A stretch of 64,000 nucleotides of DNA, taken from positions 1-64,000 of the forward strand of contig NZ_JOPJ01000004.1 in NCBI RefSeq assembly GCF_002153655.1. The letters are read 5' to 3'. How positions within the stretch are numbered: the stretch's first letter is position 1; each line of letters starts with the position of its first letter. Of the stretch, positions 46,018 through 53,761 are shown in pieces. Position numbers and translations under genes: made by a program. Source of the DNA: Acetobacter okinawensis. Its GTDB lineage: Bacteria > Pseudomonadota > Alphaproteobacteria > Acetobacterales > Acetobacteraceae. The notes below the pieces were generated by a model, which searched no databases, was not told where the DNA came from, and saw only the letters and a program-made list of their open reading frames with translations.

Positions 46018-47823
46018 CTAGTGCTCCATCTTGAGCGCGGCAAGGAAGGCGCTTTGTGGAATTTCCACCTTACCAAACTGGCGCATGCGCTTTTTACCTT
46101 CTTTCTGCTTTTCCAGCAGCTTGCGCTTACGCGAGATGTCGCCACCATAACATTTGGCCGTCACGTCCTTGGACAGGGCACCTATGGTCTCACGCGCAAT
46201 AACGCGGCTGCCAATGGCCGCCTGAATGGCGATCTTGAACAACTGGCGCGGGATCAGGTCCTTGAGCCGGGCACAAATGGAGCGCCCCCGTGTTTCGGCG
46301 GCTGAGCGGTGGGCGATAAAGCACAGCGCATCAACCGGCTCCTGATTGACCAGAATGGAAATACGCACAAGGTCGCTCTCCTCGTACCCATCCATCTGGT
46401 AATCAAAGCTGGCGTACCCGCGGGTGAGCGACTTGAGCCGGTCATAGAAGTCGAACACCACCTCATTGAGTGGCAGGCGGTAAACGGCCATGGCTCTGCT
46501 GCCAACATAGGTCAGATCGACCTGAATACCGCGCCGCTCCGTGCACAGGGTCAGAACCGCGCCCAGATATTCGTCAGGCACCATAATGTTGGCTTTGATC
46601 CATGGTTCCTCGATTTTTTCAATCAGGGAACCATCGGGCATGTCGGCCGGGTTATGGAGTTCTTCCATCTCTCCATTGGTACGATAGATTTTGTACACAA
46701 CGGAGGGCGCTGTTGCGATCAGGTCCAGATCGAACTCGCGGGAGAGACGTTCCTGAATAATTTCGAGGTGCAACAGACCAAGGAAGCCACACCGGAACCC
46801 AAAGCCAAGTGCTGCCGATGTTTCCGCCTCATAATGGAAAGACGCATCATTCAGGCGCAGCTTGGCAAGGCTGTCACGCAGTTTTTCAAAATCATCGGAG
46901 ACAATGGGGTAAAGCCCGCACCACACAACCGGAATGGACGGCTTAAAGCCCGGCAGGGGCGTAGCTGCTGGGCGGCGGTCATCCGTTATGGTGTCCCCCA
47001 CATTACAGTCCGCAACGGTTTTGATGGCGGCGTTAATGAACCCCATCTCGCCCGGCCCAAGGCTTTCCACCGGTGTCATGCGCGGGGCAAACACACCCAC
47101 CTGATCCACCTGATGCACCGCACCAGAGGACATCATGCGGACCTTCATCCCCCGCTTCAGGCGGCCTTCCTTGATCCGCACAAGCACAATCACGCCTAGG
47201 TACGGGTCATACCAGCTATCCACCAGCATGGCCTGCAGGGGCTTTTCCGCATCCCCGACCGGTGGAGGCAGACGGGTCACTACGGCTTCAAGCACCCCTT
47301 CAATATTCAGCCCTGTCTTGGCCGAAATCTCGACCGCATCATCTGCGGGAATGCCGATGACTTCCTCGATCTGTGCCTTAACACGCTCCGGCTCTGCTGC
47401 GGGCAGGTCCACCTTGTTGAGCACGGGCACAATTTCGTGGTTGGCATCTATGGCCTGATACACGTTGGCAAGGGTCTGGGCTTCCACCCCCTGAGAGGCA
47501 TCCACCACCAGAAGCGAGCCTTCGCACGCGGCAAGGGAGCGGCTGACCTCGTAAGCGAAGTCAACATGTCCGGGCGTGTCCATCAGGTTCAGGACATAGG
47601 TCTTGCCATCCTTGGCAGGATAGGTCAGCCGAACGGTCTGCGCCTTGATGGTAATGCCACGCTCGCGCTCCAGGTCCATGTTATCCAGAACCTGATTGGT
47701 CATCTCACGCGCAGTCAGGGCGCCACACGCCTGAATCAGGCGGTCTGCCAAAGTGGACTTTCCATGATCGATATGTGCGATGATGGAAAAATTGCGGATG
47801 AGCGAAAGGGGTACATCGGTCAT
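46018..47823 (-). CDS. lepA: Elongation factor 4 (LepA)
   Basis: LepA is a translational GTPase back-translocase and ribosome-assembly factor. The 601-residue protein has [16 protein letters not shown] (P-loop), [20 protein letters not shown] (switch region), [16 protein letters not shown] and [11 protein letters not shown]-like domains follow, then the LepA-specific C-terminal domain with [22 protein letters not shown] at the end. It stands between metX and the MHYT-GGDEF-EAL gene; no operon partner is obvious. Confidence 0.97.
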
Positions 47824-47898: not shown

Positions 47899-49995
47899 TC
47901 ATGCACGGGAGCATTGCTCTGCCAGAACCCCATTGGCAGGGGGCAGAACAGCCCCGTTTACGGCTGTTGCATGCATGCTGATCTGCCCATCCTTGACGAT
48001 CTCTGCCAACGGAGTAGGCCGCCCCAGCAAAAAGCCCTGTGCCTCATCACATCCAGCGGCGTTGAGCATGCTCAACTGCTCCGAGGTTTCTATCCCCTCA
48101 GCCATGACCGGAATATCAAACGCCTTGCCCAGCGCCAGCACGGCACGCACAACTGCCTGCGTGTGCTGGCTGCTCTGCGATGCTCCAAAAAAGGAACGGT
48201 CGATTTTTATAAGATCAAAAGGAAAGCGGCGCAGCGTATCAAGCGACGAATAGCCCGTACCAAAATCATCCAGCGCCAGACTGACCCCCATGTCCCTGAT
48301 CTGGTGCAACACCTGCAGGGTGCGGGTCTGGTCGGCAATAACGGTCGACTCTGTCAGCTCCAGTTCAAGCCGCTTTGGGGGGAGCCCCGTTTCCTCCAGA
48401 ACATTGGCCACAATCTGGGCAATGTCGGTATGGACAAACTGCATGCCCGACAGGTTGACCGCTACCTTGTAAGGCTGCTGCCACTGCACGGCCTGCATAC
48501 ACACGCTGCGCAGCACCCACTCACCGATCTGGAGAATAAGATCACTCTCCTCCGCTAGCGGAATAAACTCATCGGGCATGATGGTGCCCCGCGTGGGGTG
48601 CTGCCACCGCACGAGCGCCTCATAACCCCGGATTTCCCCCGTAGCGATGACCCGTTGCACCTGATAGCAGACACTCAGTTGCCCGGCCTTGAGCGCGCCG
48701 CGCAAATCCGCTGCGAGCTTGCGCCGGGTGCGCACCTTTTCATCCATTGCAGGCTCATAAAAGCAGGGCTTGCGGGCCGGGTCGGCCTTGGCGCGGTACA
48801 TGGCCAGGTCGGCGTTGTTAATCAGTGTCTCCTTATCCGCCGCATGGTCGGGCCAGATGGCCACCCCCAAGCTGGCGCCGGGCAGCACCTCGGAGTCCTC
48901 AAAACGGATCGGCTTGAACAGAACCTCCTCCAGCCTGCGCAGGAAGGTCCGGATCTGCTCCCCCGATCCGGCACGGCACAGGGCCAGAAACTCATCCCCA
49001 CCCGTGCGGGCAATAAATTCGCCGGTGTTGTCCTGTAACAGTCCACGCAGCCTGCGCCCCAGAATACGCAGGACCTCGTCCCCCGCCCTGTGGCCACGCA
49101 GATCATTGATTTCCTTGAACCTGTTCAGGTCAATCCCGATCAGGGCCAGCCGCGCGTTGTTCTCCCGCGCCCAGTCCAGCTCCAGATCAAGGCGCTGATG
49201 GAAGTTCAGCCGGTTGGGCAGGCCTGTCAGTGTGTCATTCAGGGCCATACGCCGCAGTTTTTCCACCGACTCCGCGCGTGAGCTGTCGTCGATCATGCCG
49301 CTGACCAGCCCGCCACTCAAAATCAGGAAGGACATGATGGCAATAGCGACCGCCAGCACAAGGGAATCGTGCGTGCTGGCCACGACCCCTGTCTGCTGCA
49401 TGCCCTGCACATGGTAGGCGGCCATACCAATAAAATGCACACACAGCACCGCCAGCGCGAGCACTCCCGCCATATAGGAAACCCCATGGCGGCCCGACCG
49501 CACACCCGCACGCACTGCCAGCACGCTCAACACAACTGCGGCCACGACTGAGAGCACCAGACAGGGCATGTTCCATGTCGTCTGCCCCTGCACCCGGTAG
49601 GCCAGCATGCCGGTGTAATGCATGGCAACAATAGACAGACCGACAATAACGCCGCCTGTTTCTGGCAAAAAACGCACAAAACGGCATGTTGCCAGCATAA
49701 ACCCGATGGTGCTGCCTAACACCGCAATCAACAGGGATACGCTTGTCAGCAGCGGGTCAAACCGCGCGGGGGTGCCCGCAGCATATCCCAGCATGGCCAC
49801 AAAATGCGTGCACCAGATTGCAACACCGCTTGAAAGGGCGGTGAGAAAAAGCCACGCATACCATTGGTTGTTTTTAGCGCGAAGAGCATGCCGGAACAGG
49901 GACGCCGTAACCCCCGACCCGCAAAAACACAGCAAGGCAGCGACAAAGACCAACCAAAGATTATGCTGGCCAAGAATGCACCTTACAACCATCAT
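47899..49995 (-). CDS. MHYT-GGDEF-EAL membrane protein (c-di-GMP turnover)
   Basis: This 698-residue sensor and enzyme has seven membrane helices (about 1-245) forming an MHYT domain, with three repeats carrying THFVAML, AMHYTGMLAY and HFIGMAAYHVQG, thought to bind a metal and sense gas or redox. A GGDEF domain (about 250-410) has intact RTGGDEFLAL, so c-di-GMP synthesis is possible. The EAL domain (about 430-690) has YEALVRW, LELTEST, LDDFGTGYSSL, IKIDRSF and EGIETSEQ, so hydrolysis is also plausible. The net direction cannot be told. In acetic acid bacteria c-di-GMP controls exopolysaccharide and motility, which is family knowledge. Confidence 0.93.
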   Translation of the reverse strand: MMVVRCILGQHNLWLVFVAALLCFCGSGVTASLFRHALRAKNNQWYAWLFLTALSSGVAIWCTHFVAMLGYAAGTPARFDPLLTSVSLLIAVLGSTIGFMLATCRFVRFLPETGGVIVGLSIVAMHYTGMLAYRVQGQTTWNMPCLVLSVVAAVVLSVLAVRAGVRSGRHGVSYMAGVLALAVLCVHFIGMAAYHVQGMQQTGVVASTHDSLVLAVAIAIMSFLILSGGLVSGMIDDSSRAESVEKLRRMALNDTLTGLPNRLNFHQRLDLELDWARENNARLALIGIDLNRFKEINDLRGHRAGDEVLRILGRRLRGLLQDNTGEFIARTGGDEFLALCRAGSGEQIRTFLRRLEEVLFKPIRFEDSEVLPGASLGVAIWPDHAADKETLINNADLAMYRAKADPARKPCFYEPAMDEKVRTRRKLAADLRGALKAGQLSVCYQVQRVIATGEIRGYEALVRWQHPTRGTIMPDEFIPLAEESDLILQIGEWVLRSVCMQAVQWQQPYKVAVNLSGMQFVHTDIAQIVANVLEETGLPPKRLELELTESTVIADQTRTLQVLHQIRDMGVSLALDDFGTGYSSLDTLRRFPFDLIKIDRSFFGASQSSQHTQAVVRAVLALGKAFDIPVMAEGIETSEQLSMLNAAGCDEAQGFLLGRPTPLAEIVKDGQISMHATAVNGAVLPPANGVLAEQCSRA

Positions 49996-50170: not shown

Positions 50171-50827
50171 CTAAACAGTCATCATGACAATCCTGTGTAA
50201 CCAGGCTCCGTCCCCCTGTGCGGGCAGCACATGCATGTCCGCCCCCCGAAAAGAACAGATAACGCGCTCCGCCTCTCCGGCCTCAATCAGCAGGCCCATA
50301 ACAGGTGTACGCGCCGGGGCGTGCAGCAACACCCTATCCCCCTCCCGCAGGGGGAGCGAGGGCGCCACCACAACAGACCCGCCATCCCGCACAACTGGCT
50401 CCATGGCGTCAGTATCCACCCTGACCACGTAAGTACCCGGCTCACTCCACCACTGGCCGGGAGAGTTCTCCCACTCCCACACAGGACCACACGGCAACCC
50501 GTACTGGTCAAACACCCCCTCCTGACCCAGCATGGAATAGGACAGAGCGCGGAGCTTGCCTGCCTGCTCCGCCAGAGGAGCGTGGCCGACCTCCTCCCCC
50601 GCAACATGCCGGGCAAAAACAGCCAGCGGCACCTGCAAAACATCAAGAATGCCCAAAAGGGTTGGCAGGGATGGCCAGCGCATACCACCACCTGCCACAA
50701 CCCGACGGGACGGGTTGAGCGCCGTTGCATCCAACCCGGCTGCACGTGCCAGAGCGGAAGGCGTAAACCCACGCTCACGCCCCAATGTGTCCAGCACCTG
50801 CCAGACCCGTTGTGGCTGCGCGATCAT
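50171..50827 (-). CDS. XRE-type regulator with S24-like domain lacking protease residues
   Basis: The N-terminal half is a helix-turn-helix (FTPSALARAAGLDATALNPSRR near 20, then RWPSLPTLLGILDVLQV). The C-terminal half (about 125-218) follows the LexA/CI S24 fold: TYVVRVDTDAMEPVVRDGGSVVVAP and REGDRVLLH. Peptidases have GDSM with a nucleophilic Ser; here it reads TDAM, with Ala. The segment that normally carries the general-base Lys reads APARTPVMGLLIEA with no Lys. Self-cleavage is thus unlikely and the domain probably only dimerises or binds a signal. It overlaps the preceding 82-residue gene by ATGA and lies in the gcd downstream cluster. Confidence 0.78.
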   Translation of the reverse strand: MIAQPQRVWQVLDTLGRERGFTPSALARAAGLDATALNPSRRVVAGGGMRWPSLPTLLGILDVLQVPLAVFARHVAGEEVGHAPLAEQAGKLRALSYSMLGQEGVFDQYGLPCGPVWEWENSPGQWWSEPGTYVVRVDTDAMEPVVRDGGSVVVAPSLPLREGDRVLLHAPARTPVMGLLIEAGEAERVICSFRGADMHVLPAQGDGAWLHRIVMMTV

Positions 50828-51072
50828 GATCTTGGGGGGGCGGAGTGTGCGGGTGTGCCTTTGAGCTTCAACACCTCAAGCCCATGGCGGGCCTGACCGG
50901 CATCCGTTGCCACAAAGCGTCCATCAGGGTTCCGCGCCACCAGCCCCATACGCTCCAGCCGTTCAAGGCAGGGGTCATCCTTCAGCCCGGCCGGGCGTCC
51001 GCCCGGGCCAGCAAGGTAGAGCCTGTGCAAGGCGGAGCGGCAGCATGTCTGAAGGTAAGGTTCGTTCCACAT
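50824..51072 (-). CDS. Small protein of unknown function between gcd and the S24-like regulator
   Basis: The 82-residue protein starts MWNEPYLQTCCRSALHRLYLAG. A short helix-rich middle (KDDPCLERLERMGLVARN) follows, with a strand-like PDGRFVATDAGQARHGLEVL that looks like a winged-helix wing. It might be a tiny DNA-binding or accessory protein. I cannot name it. It begins 63 bases after the gcd stop and overlaps the regulator start by four bases, so gcd, this gene and the regulator may be one transcript. The upstream frame could extend it to 51108. Confidence 0.5.
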   Translation of the reverse strand: MWNEPYLQTCCRSALHRLYLAGPGGRPAGLKDDPCLERLERMGLVARNPDGRFVATDAGQARHGLEVLKLKGTPAHSAPPRS

Positions 51073-51135
51073 TCCATGCACGATCACCGATCCCGCATGG
51101 AACTGCAAGGCTTACCCACTCTACCGCACCGGTTG

Positions 51136-53547
51136 TCAGTGCGTGCCCGGGGGAAGGGCATAAGCAACAATATAATCCCCCTCCCGCGTGCCAAAGGAGC
51201 CGTGCCCGCCGTCAACCGTCACTACATACTGGCGGGCATTGGCCTCGTAGGTCATTGGGGTGGACTGTCCCCCTGCGGGCAGGCGGTCCTCCCACAGGAC
51301 CTTGCCGGTCGTCACATCATACGCACGGATATAATAATCCGATGTGGAGGTCAGAAACGCCACCCCACCTGCGGTCATGATCGGCCCGCCAAGGGAAGGT
51401 ACTCCGACCTTGAAGCCAAAAGGCAGAGGGGAACTGTCCCGCGTTGTGCCATTGCGGTGCTGCCACGCAATGGTGTTGGTCTTCAGGTCCACCCCGGCCA
51501 CAAAGCCCCACCCCGGCTGTTTGCACGGAATCCCGAAGGGGGAGAGGAACGGGTGCAGGTCCACCCCAAAAGGCGTGCCATACTGGGGCTGCAAACCGTT
51601 CTCCCCACCAGATGCTGCCGTGTCGTGCGTGGTGGGGGGCACCACCTGATTCTCCGTTGGCCGCGGCACAAGGCGGGACACAAAGGGAATCCCTATAGGG
51701 TTTGCAAACGCTATCTGCCGCACCGGGTCCACGGCCAGCCCACCCCACTCAAACATGCCCAGATTACCGGGGAAGACCAGCGTCCCCTGCACAGATGGTG
51801 GGGTAAACGGCCCTTCGTAACGCAATTGCTTGAACATGACCCGGCAAACCAGCTGGTCCAGCATGGTCGCCCCCCACATATCCTTATCCGTCAGTTTGTT
51901 TTTGGGGCGGAAGGTCAGTTGCGAGAACGGCTGGGTGGCCGAGACATGGTCCCCCATGGCCGCGCCCTGCGGCACCGCCTGCTCTGGGGCGGGTACCAGC
52001 AACTGCCCGTTCCTGCGGTCGAGCACAAAAATATTGCCGGTTTTGGCGGGCGCGTACAAGGCTGGCACCACCGTGCCATCGGGCTGGGTAAAGTCGATCA
52101 AACTCGGCTGGGCAGGCACGTCCATGTCCCACAAGTCGTGGTGAACAGTCTGGTAAAACCAGACTTTGTGGCCCGTATTGGCATCCAGCGCCAGAATGCC
52201 CGATGCGTAGCGCTCCTGCACATCCGTGCGCTTACCACCCCATATGTCGGGCGTGGCAACCCCTGTGGGAATATAGATCAGGCCCAACTTTGCATCATAA
52301 GCGGAAACAATCCACGAGTTGGGAGAATTGGGGGTGTACTGGTGCGTGCTCGAAGGCAGCATATTGGGGTCCGGGTTGCCCGGGTCAAACGCCCACACCA
52401 GTTGGCCACTGTACAGGTCGTATGCCCGCATGACCCCTGATGGTTCATGCGTGGAGTAGTTATCTGTCACAGCGCCTGAAATAATAACCAGCCTGTCTGT
52501 CACAACAGGGGGGGAGGTCGGCTCATAAAAGCCGAGAACACGCATGGGCATGCCCTCGGTCAGGTCCACAGTGCCCTTATTCCCAAACGCCGGGCACAAC
52601 TGGCCTGTCCGGGCATCCAGCGCCATCAGCCGTCCATCATTGGTTGGCAGAAAAATACGCTCCGCACAGGGCTGCGGTGCAACCGGCCCACCAGCTTCCG
52701 CCGTGGAGGAGCGCGCTGGTGTGGCGGCATAGGAGACGCCACGGCAGGTCAGGTGCTGAAAAGTCGGGTTTACCAGCAACTGAGGGTCAAACCGCCACAC
52801 CTGCCTGCCTGTTGCTGCATCCAGAGCAAACACGATCTGATGCGGCGAGCATAGGTACAGCGTGTTGCCGATTTTGATTGGTGTTGCCTCATCCGTAATT
52901 TCCACCGGATCATCAGGCCCGCGCATGTCGTGGGTTCTGAACGTCCATGCGACCTGAAGGTGGCTCACATTCCCTGCGTTAATCTGGCTTAAGGGGGAAT
53001 AACGGTCCCCCGCCTGTGTGCGGCCATATGCGGGCCAGTCCTGCGCAGGCACAGCGGCAGCATCTCCGGGGAGTTGCATGCCGTTATAGGCTGTTTGCAC
53101 GCGGGGCAGCGCCCCGGCCATATCCTGCGGGTCCTGGGTAAGTGCATAACCATACACCCCAAGCCCGGCCAGAATGACCACCAGCAGGGGAATGCGGTTC
53201 CATACCGAGACCGGGTGCAACTCCCGGGCCACAAAAGGCAAAAGCAGCCATACCCCCAGAGGCAGCACAACATCCCCTCTAGGCGCCAGCGCCCAGAAGT
53301 CAAACCCCACCTCGGCCATGGACCAGAAGAGCGTAGCCGCAGCCACCGCCGCGTAAAGCCACAAGGCCTCGCGCCGTTGCCGCCAGAGCAGCAGGCCGGT
53401 CCCCACAATTCCCAGACCGCAGATTACATAAAAACCGGAACCACCCAGTATGGCCAGCCAGCCACCGCCCCCTACCAGACCGGCACCGAGTATGATGCAG
53501 ATCAATGCCGTGATTTTTGACAGAATATGGGAACGGCCGCCTTGCAT
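51136..53547 (-). CDS. gcd: Membrane-bound PQQ-dependent glucose dehydrogenase
   Basis: This quinoprotein oxidises D-glucose to gluconolactone in the periplasm and passes electrons to ubiquinone. The 803-residue protein has about five N-terminal membrane helices (roughly 10-150), then the eight-bladed beta-propeller with WPAYGRTQAGDRYSPLSQI near 168. PQQ- and substrate-site regions include HDLWDMDVPAQPSL, LYAPAKTGNIFVLDRRNG and MTAGGVAFLTSTSDYYIRAYD. ATG 53547 is chosen because GGAGA at about ten bases fits it, whereas ATG 53556 would abut that site. Acetic acid bacteria use this enzyme for incomplete sugar oxidation. No pqq genes are in the window. Confidence 0.95.
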   Translation of the reverse strand: MQGGRSHILSKITALICIILGAGLVGGGGWLAILGGSGFYVICGLGIVGTGLLLWRQRREALWLYAAVAAATLFWSMAEVGFDFWALAPRGDVVLPLGVWLLLPFVARELHPVSVWNRIPLLVVILAGLGVYGYALTQDPQDMAGALPRVQTAYNGMQLPGDAAAVPAQDWPAYGRTQAGDRYSPLSQINAGNVSHLQVAWTFRTHDMRGPDDPVEITDEATPIKIGNTLYLCSPHQIVFALDAATGRQVWRFDPQLLVNPTFQHLTCRGVSYAATPARSSTAEAGGPVAPQPCAERIFLPTNDGRLMALDARTGQLCPAFGNKGTVDLTEGMPMRVLGFYEPTSPPVVTDRLVIISGAVTDNYSTHEPSGVMRAYDLYSGQLVWAFDPGNPDPNMLPSSTHQYTPNSPNSWIVSAYDAKLGLIYIPTGVATPDIWGGKRTDVQERYASGILALDANTGHKVWFYQTVHHDLWDMDVPAQPSLIDFTQPDGTVVPALYAPAKTGNIFVLDRRNGQLLVPAPEQAVPQGAAMGDHVSATQPFSQLTFRPKNKLTDKDMWGATMLDQLVCRVMFKQLRYEGPFTPPSVQGTLVFPGNLGMFEWGGLAVDPVRQIAFANPIGIPFVSRLVPRPTENQVVPPTTHDTAASGGENGLQPQYGTPFGVDLHPFLSPFGIPCKQPGWGFVAGVDLKTNTIAWQHRNGTTRDSSPLPFGFKVGVPSLGGPIMTAGGVAFLTSTSDYYIRAYDVTTGKVLWEDRLPAGGQSTPMTYEANARQYVVTVDGGHGSFGTREGDYIVAYALPPGTH

Positions 53548-53692
53548 GACCGGCATTCTCCTTACGTTACAAAGAGCACTTCCTTGGACCTGAAATGCTC
53601 ATTCAGGGTTCATCAATATCATTTCCGTACAAATGTATCATATTATACTTAAAAATCGAATAAGTTTTCCGGCAGGCATATTGTGCATAAAA

Positions 53693-53733
53693 AAAACGCG
53701 GTCCCAACAAAGGGGCCGCGTCTTTTATTATCC
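53693..53733 (-). terminator. Rho-independent terminator of glnA
   Basis: On the minus strand, downstream of glnA: stem GACGCGGCCCC with GGGACCGCGTT, six-base loop, then a run of eight T. The stem is GC-rich with one mismatch. Confidence 0.9.
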
Positions 53734-53761
53734 GCCGTAACAGCCCCGAAGGGCTGTACAA

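Follow-up and report, generated by a model that had tools for sequence, protein, structure and literature searches.

An S24-like regulator without self-cleavage residues, paired with a small partner gene, in Acetobacter okinawensis and its relatives

The locus and the family of its regulator

The window analysed here, a 64,000-nucleotide stretch of the Acetobacter okinawensis genome, carries on its minus strand a gene for an S24-like regulator that lacks the residues for self-cleavage. The start of this gene overlaps by 4 bases the end of the gene for a small protein, here called P2, and 63 bases lie between the ATG of P2 and a gcd-type gene (Table 1); these reading frames and distances are all as given in the preliminary description of the locus. 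The gcd-type gene scores 1084.7 bits against TIGR03074 (cut-off 832.65), and two further gcd-type paralogues are present in the same genome (G000:C76:969-3383, 43% identity; G000:C22:29196-31568, 40% identity). On the other side of the regulator, an open reading frame with GGDEF and EAL motifs occupies this 3' position only in the window and in loci L068-L072 of the flank comparison. Among the four loci found, the closest named genome is that of A. okinawensis JCM 25146 (96% protein identity), and the genus label of the window seems, judging by divergence and genome sizes, to span the acetic acid bacteria.

Table 1. Genes and sequence features around the regulator, in window coordinates.
Feature	Coordinates	Strand	Basis
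S24-like regulator without catalytic residues, 218 aa	50171..50827	-	ORF, orthologue alignments, hhalign to the intact family
P2, predicted winged-helix protein of 82 aa, constant partner	50824..51072	-	ORF, structure model, relatives
PQQ membrane dehydrogenase, glucose/quinate/shikimate family (gcd-type), variable neighbour	51136..53556	-	TIGR03074
XRE-type HTH domain of the regulator, residues 1-75, family signature GLDATALNPSRR	50603..50827	-	signature count, structure model
Residues 98-101, SMLG, at the former cleavage loop (intact relatives: AQAG)	50525..50536	-	alignment columns
TDAM replacing GDSM, residues 139-142, Ala141 in the nucleophile column	50402..50413	-	orthologue alignments
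VMGLL, residues 176-180, Gly178 in the Lys column (VMAK in intact relatives)	50288..50302	-	orthologue alignments
Conserved promoter-like element: TTGCAG 51103-51108, 17-base spacer, GATCGT 51080-51085	51080..51108	-	upstream regions
Operator-like palindrome over the putative -10, GCACGATCACCGATCCCGC, 12/14 of GCAGGAT-N5-ATCCTGC	51078..51096	.	motif scoring
glnA		-	by translation
ORF with GGDEF and EAL motifs, 3' of the regulator	47899-49995	-	motifs by eye
lepA	46018-47823	-	by translation

Judged by its sequence, the regulator is a member of an Alphaproteobacterial family that combines an XRE-type HTH domain with an S24 domain. Homologues were found in 67 of 100 genomes of relatives (E <= 0.001), nearly always in single copy, and a profile of 13 intact orthologues, which keep the catalytic Ser and Lys, matched 90 of 289 genomes of the class at E <= 1e-20; the fetched loci do not include four of these 90, which match in the N-terminal part only. 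A total of 148 loci were aligned. The counts given below for 139 family rows omit nine of these, namely five duplicates, L063 (broken frame) and L173-L175 (N-terminal matches only), and the 45 same-genus rows come from the 46 genomes of the genus label that carry the gene, without G029 (L063). Both Ser and Lys are present in 62 of the 139 rows, here termed intact (including L176, which is doubtful as it has no HTH signature), Ser alone in five, Lys alone in five, and neither in 67. The HTH signature GL[DN]xTxxNxS[KR]R is kept in 136 of the 139 rows and is carried by the window protein.

The S24-type relationship proposed earlier for the window protein holds through its orthologues and not through its own Pfam score, which, at 20.5 bits against S24, lies under the cut-off of 23.3. 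The assignment nevertheless stands because homology to the intact orthologues is full-length: in hhalign, the window clade can be aligned with its intact relatives along the whole length (212 columns, E 1.8e-53). The profile of intact orthologues in turn matches the solved structures of lambda CI (E 1.6e-6) and LexA (E 5e-6), and two intact orthologues match the phage repressor family phrog_4. For the window regulator itself, no PHROG match was found and no NCBIfam match at E up to 1, so that the cut-off of TIGR00498 (LexA) is not reached; sequence-only PDB searches, started either from the window protein or from a profile of the degenerate clade, found no S24 structure. The structure model of the regulator has a mean pLDDT of 53, with residues 79-158 below 50 and low confidence in the C-terminal half. 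Its HTH part matches XRE-type and restriction-controller proteins (2b5a_B, Z 9.0, rmsd 2.0 over 69 residues), and the first Foldseek match of this weak model is the lambda repressor 3bdn_A (E 1.2e-3, TM 0.23, rmsd 22.8).

P2 and the sequences upstream of the pair

The unit that is conserved at this locus is the pair of P2 and the regulator. P2 was found in 46 of the 49 genomes of the genus label, the same 46 that carry the regulator, although in G010 it is in two broken pieces. Neither gene was found in G012, G016 and G025, the three smallest genomes among the 49; a P2 match in G025 (E 0.29) is at chance level. The 4-base overlap is readable in 26 of 44 rows, although some rows allow more than one start, and the window's value comes from its ORF list. 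Nine of 11 other genomes of the same taxonomic family carry the regulator, which is intact in seven (G050-G054, G058 and G059) and degenerate in two (G049 and G057), and it is likewise degenerate in a further Acetobacteraceae member, G350. The degenerate Acetobacteraceae that were examined, G049, G057 and G350 among them, have P2 directly upstream of the regulator. P2 is adjacent to the regulator in none of the seven intact ones: it is found about 0.8-1 kb upstream in G050 and G054, about 12 kb off in G051, G053 and G059, and on another contig in G058, and was not found in G052. A P2 homologue with 55% identity is also present in G056 (G056:C2:255947-256180), a genome without a regulator match, and P2 may, given this occurrence, also function without the regulator.

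P2 is predicted to be a winged-helix protein of the MarR/PadR type. Its model (pLDDT 73.8) consists of two helices, a two-strand wing and a further helix, and a top VIA-align match is the MarR protein 3vb2_B (Z 9.0, rmsd 3.3 over 75 residues). The top rows include MarR, VanR and PadR-type proteins at Z 9.0 to 8, a modest score at which many families are tied, and the best Foldseek match has an E value of 0.05. The predicted topology resembles that of MarR/PadR regulators, but P2 has only 82 residues and no sequence family match over threshold.

The pair has a conserved promoter-like element of its own. Among 45 upstream regions (44 from the genus label and that of G057), 39 have TTGC at -37 to -33 relative to the P2 start. 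In the window the element ends 7 bases from the ATG; the putative -10 is placed just before the ATG because of the 17-base spacer from TTGC, and would be arranged as for a leaderless transcript. A scan for sigma-70 consensus sites did not list this element; of the four sites that it did give, versus 1.4 expected, one is at 51194-51167, in the last part of gcd. A terminator-like site is present at 51199-51178, and promoter-like and terminator-like sites are both frequent by chance. Only some loci have the palindrome over the putative -10: its ATCCTG half stands where expected in 18 of the 45 regions, and the window score of 12/14 is reached at three positions of the window.

A different dyad was found upstream of the intact orthologues. 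Here 55 of the 62 intact rows were used, with six near-duplicates and L176 left out. TTCCTA is present in 37 of the 55 regions versus 4.7 expected, and the commonest 6-mer in any of 60 shuffles reached 22. The dyad ATAGGAA-N4-TTCCTAT, a consensus derived from these same sequences, scores at least 11/14 in 27 of 55 regions versus about 0.6 expected. In an independent set of nine loci, taken from 24 plasmid-collection records with a match, it reaches at least 11/14 in two versus 0.05 expected, and TTCCTA is present in five; L215 and L217 in this set are near-identical, and L216, L222 and L223 are without an intact Ser motif by a simple pattern. In several Alphaproteobacterial families, such dyads are probable operators of the intact orthologues. 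Dyads of this kind, sometimes in more than one copy, are seen for instance upstream of L051, L103, L119, L122, L129, L138 and L143. In Sinorhizobium meliloti Ak57 (L215:5998-7993; the record is named pSymB), genes of the thermonuclease and TerB families come after the intact orthologue and may offer a clue to its function.

Genome-wide searches were made with two patterns. GCAGGAT-N5-ATCCTGC, with one mismatch allowed, has matches in 39 of the 49 genomes, and the pattern read backwards in 1 of 49. Among the matches listed, 31 sites were read with a crude gene caller: three are P2 promoters (L186, L190 and L193), a further 21 are within called frames, some of them recurring between genomes, and seven are intergenic and away from P2 (L194, L199, L200, L201, L206, L209 and L210). 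No second target was identified among these 31 sites; however, since the palindrome is far commoner than its reversed control, further targets, and thus a wider regulon, are possible. For TTCCTA-N4-TAGGAA, three of 13 genomes have matches, all in one genus and each with one site beside the regulator, together with one other site, in G269.

The likeliest action of the regulator would be at the palindrome, as a repressor of its own operon. The palindrome could be bound by P2 instead, with the S24-like protein acting as a co-regulator or antagonist of P2. The predicted winged-helix fold of P2 is consistent with this, as are the difference between the clade palindrome (N5, ATCCTGC) and the dyad of the intact relatives (N4, TTCCTAT) and the separation of P2 from the regulator in the seven intact Acetobacteraceae. 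Against it, the HTH signature of the regulator is kept throughout almost the whole family, and the half-sites of the two motifs have, by eye, the core TCCTR in common. Binding by P2 is rather unlikely, and the regulator itself is the better candidate for the palindrome.

The preliminary description had proposed that the regulator may control gcd, and with it glucose oxidation, from a shared transcript. In the window strain, read-through from gcd into P2 is possible. The two genes are close and on the same strand, and the only same-strand promoter-like scan match near P2 is the one within the end of gcd. In addition, 14 of 45 loci have a gcd gene (>55% identity) whose end is no more than 500 bp upstream of P2. 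However, it is 0.5-6 kb upstream in another seven and outside the fetched flank (5-8 kb, shorter in some) in the remaining 24, in which the regulator and P2 are kept, so that gcd and the regulator do not form a conserved unit. In several genomes (e.g. G007, G013, G018 and G032) the best gcd copy is on another contig or far off, and glnA can stand immediately upstream of P2 in loci without gcd (e.g. L075, L079 and L082). Upstream of gcd, at 53557-53761, neither motif rises above background, the best score being 8/14, which hundreds of window positions attain. Together with the promoter-like element of P2, these observations do not bear out the proposal, and control of gcd from a shared transcript is improbable.

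Loss of the self-cleavage machinery

In all 13 intact members compared, Ser and Lys are exactly 37 residues apart, and AQAG is present upstream, with its Ala 39-40 residues before Ser. The window regulator has neither catalytic residue, reading TDAM for GDSM and VMGLL for VMAK, and the earlier observation to this effect is confirmed. Misalignment is excluded by the 212-column hhalign alignment and by the absence of Lys from columns 174-182 in 45 of 45 same-genus rows. In these rows the Lys column itself has Gly in 34, Ala in eight and Arg in three. The Ser column has 13 different residues, and Ser in three rows, none of which has Lys. The observation is also larger than first described, in that the loss extends to the Ala-Gly cleavage site and to the whole clade: the cleavage-site column has Ala in 0 of 45 same-genus rows versus 61 of 62 intact rows, the window reading Leu100-Gly101, and an AG pair elsewhere in the cleavage stretch is seen in four of 45 rows, out of register. 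The absence of Ser and Lys is genuine and extends across the clade; therefore, release by RecA-stimulated self-cleavage is very unlikely, which supports the earlier suggestion that release occurs in some other way.

Other positions have become fixed. Ser98 and Leu100 are present in 45 of 45 same-genus rows, at positions where 97-98% of intact rows have Ala, and Arg136 and Asp138 are nearly fixed (96% and 98% of same-genus rows), where intact rows have mostly E and S.

Elsewhere in the family, intact and degenerate states are both found within at least five family codes (f1, f66, f86, f96 and f117; compiled by hand), and therefore repeated loss is favoured. Lys alone is lost in f86 and Ser alone in f117. 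A tree built without the catalytic stretches requires at least eight changes between the intact and degenerate states, although its resolution is poor and the starred branches by themselves demand a single change.

The regulator gene is under purifying selection. Compared with four named Acetobacter, dN/dS is 0.063, 0.158, 0.211 and 0.146 for the whole gene, and 0.077-0.219 for the C-terminal part; with values this low, the loss of the catalytic residues looks like repurposing rather than decay. The regulator of the draft genome G029 is divided between two reading frames (L063:4926-5534), through either sequencing error or loss. A LexA-family match elsewhere in the genome scores 181.4 bits against TIGR00498 (curated cut-off 110.95), and therefore SOS need not depend on the S24-like regulator.

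Decay of the gene after loss of self-cleavage, to which the freely varying Ser column, the broken frame in G029 and the three genomes without the gene might point, is very hard to reconcile with the low dN/dS, the new residues fixed in every same-genus row and the presence of the gene in 46 of 49 genomes. Equally improbable is continued self-cleavage with other residues: some relatives have Asp or Arg in the Ser or Lys column and three of 45 rows have Ser in the Ser column, but that column has no conserved replacement, Lys is missing from columns 174-182 and Ala from the site column in every same-genus row.

Interpretation and relation to known systems

Overall, the regulator is probably a non-cleavable protein that controls the two-gene operon to which it belongs, with a signal other than RecA, perhaps P2, as its switch. 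It would descend from self-cleaving, CI/LexA-like repressors of the Alphaproteobacteria, with Ser, Lys and the Ala-Gly bond lost in an ancestor of the window's clade, which presumably corresponds to the acetic acid bacteria. New residues would then have become fixed at the former cleavage loop (Ser98 and Leu100) and at or near the active-site strand (Arg136 and Asp138). The present protein would be permanently non-cleavable, DNA-binding and probably dimeric, and would be made from a translationally overlapped operon with P2, whose start-proximal promoter with its palindrome would be the site of autorepression. Release would require something other than RecA-driven cleavage, for which P2 is the first candidate.

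S24 proteins have in common self-cleavage, with a Ser-Lys dyad and an Ala-Gly site, as described in the parts of two articles that were available (PMC7101444, PMC13148647). Like lambda CI and LexA, the proteins of this family join an HTH domain to an S24-like C-terminal domain, and the intact orthologues keep the Ser, the Lys 37 residues away and the Ala-Gly site; unlike them, the window clade is without the Lys and an in-register Ala-Gly, and nearly always without the Ser. The nearest precedent for the loss is LexA of Synechocystis PCC 6803, in which, according to the available portions of the reports, the catalytic Ser and Ala-Gly have likewise disappeared and which regulates genes outside the SOS response (PMC7567884, PMC3091678). 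That protein is a diverged LexA of one cyanobacterium, for which those portions report the loss of Ser and Ala-Gly only, whereas here a whole clade of a CI-type family is affected, the Lys is lost too, new residues are fixed and there is a partner gene. IrvR of Streptococcus mutans is a LexA-like regulator described as freed from the RecA paradigm; unlike the window regulator, it still cleaves itself between Ala and Gly, as stated in the section of the article consulted (PMC7101444). FddR of Francisella, in the part of its description that was seen, is an autoregulatory, CI-like protein of the S24 type that has become fixed in a bacterial lineage, but it keeps the catalytic residues and Ala-Gly and responds to DNA damage (PMC13148647). 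A partial literature search found no study of the XRE-S24 family described here. The main text of a study of Gluconobacter oxydans knockouts, as far as it was accessible, does not mention S24 (PMC8602642), and another candidate article was rejected, as 'S24' in its available text is a figure number (PMC10754441).

A broader scenario, which is doubtful as a whole, is that in acetic acid bacteria a RecA-dependent self-cleavage switch was converted to a protein-protein switch. P2 would have become the translationally coupled first gene when self-cleavage was lost, Ser98, Leu100, Arg136 and Asp138 would form a docking or sensing surface, and full or partial loss of catalysis would have occurred separately in several other Alphaproteobacterial families.

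Genes such as this one are a warning against annotation as RecA-mediated autopeptidases. For a regulator on which no study was found, the predicted operators of the intact family offer a direct way to its function. A conserved clade without self-cleavage, alongside intact relatives from the same taxonomic family, illustrates how the rewiring of a one-way DNA-damage switch can come about.
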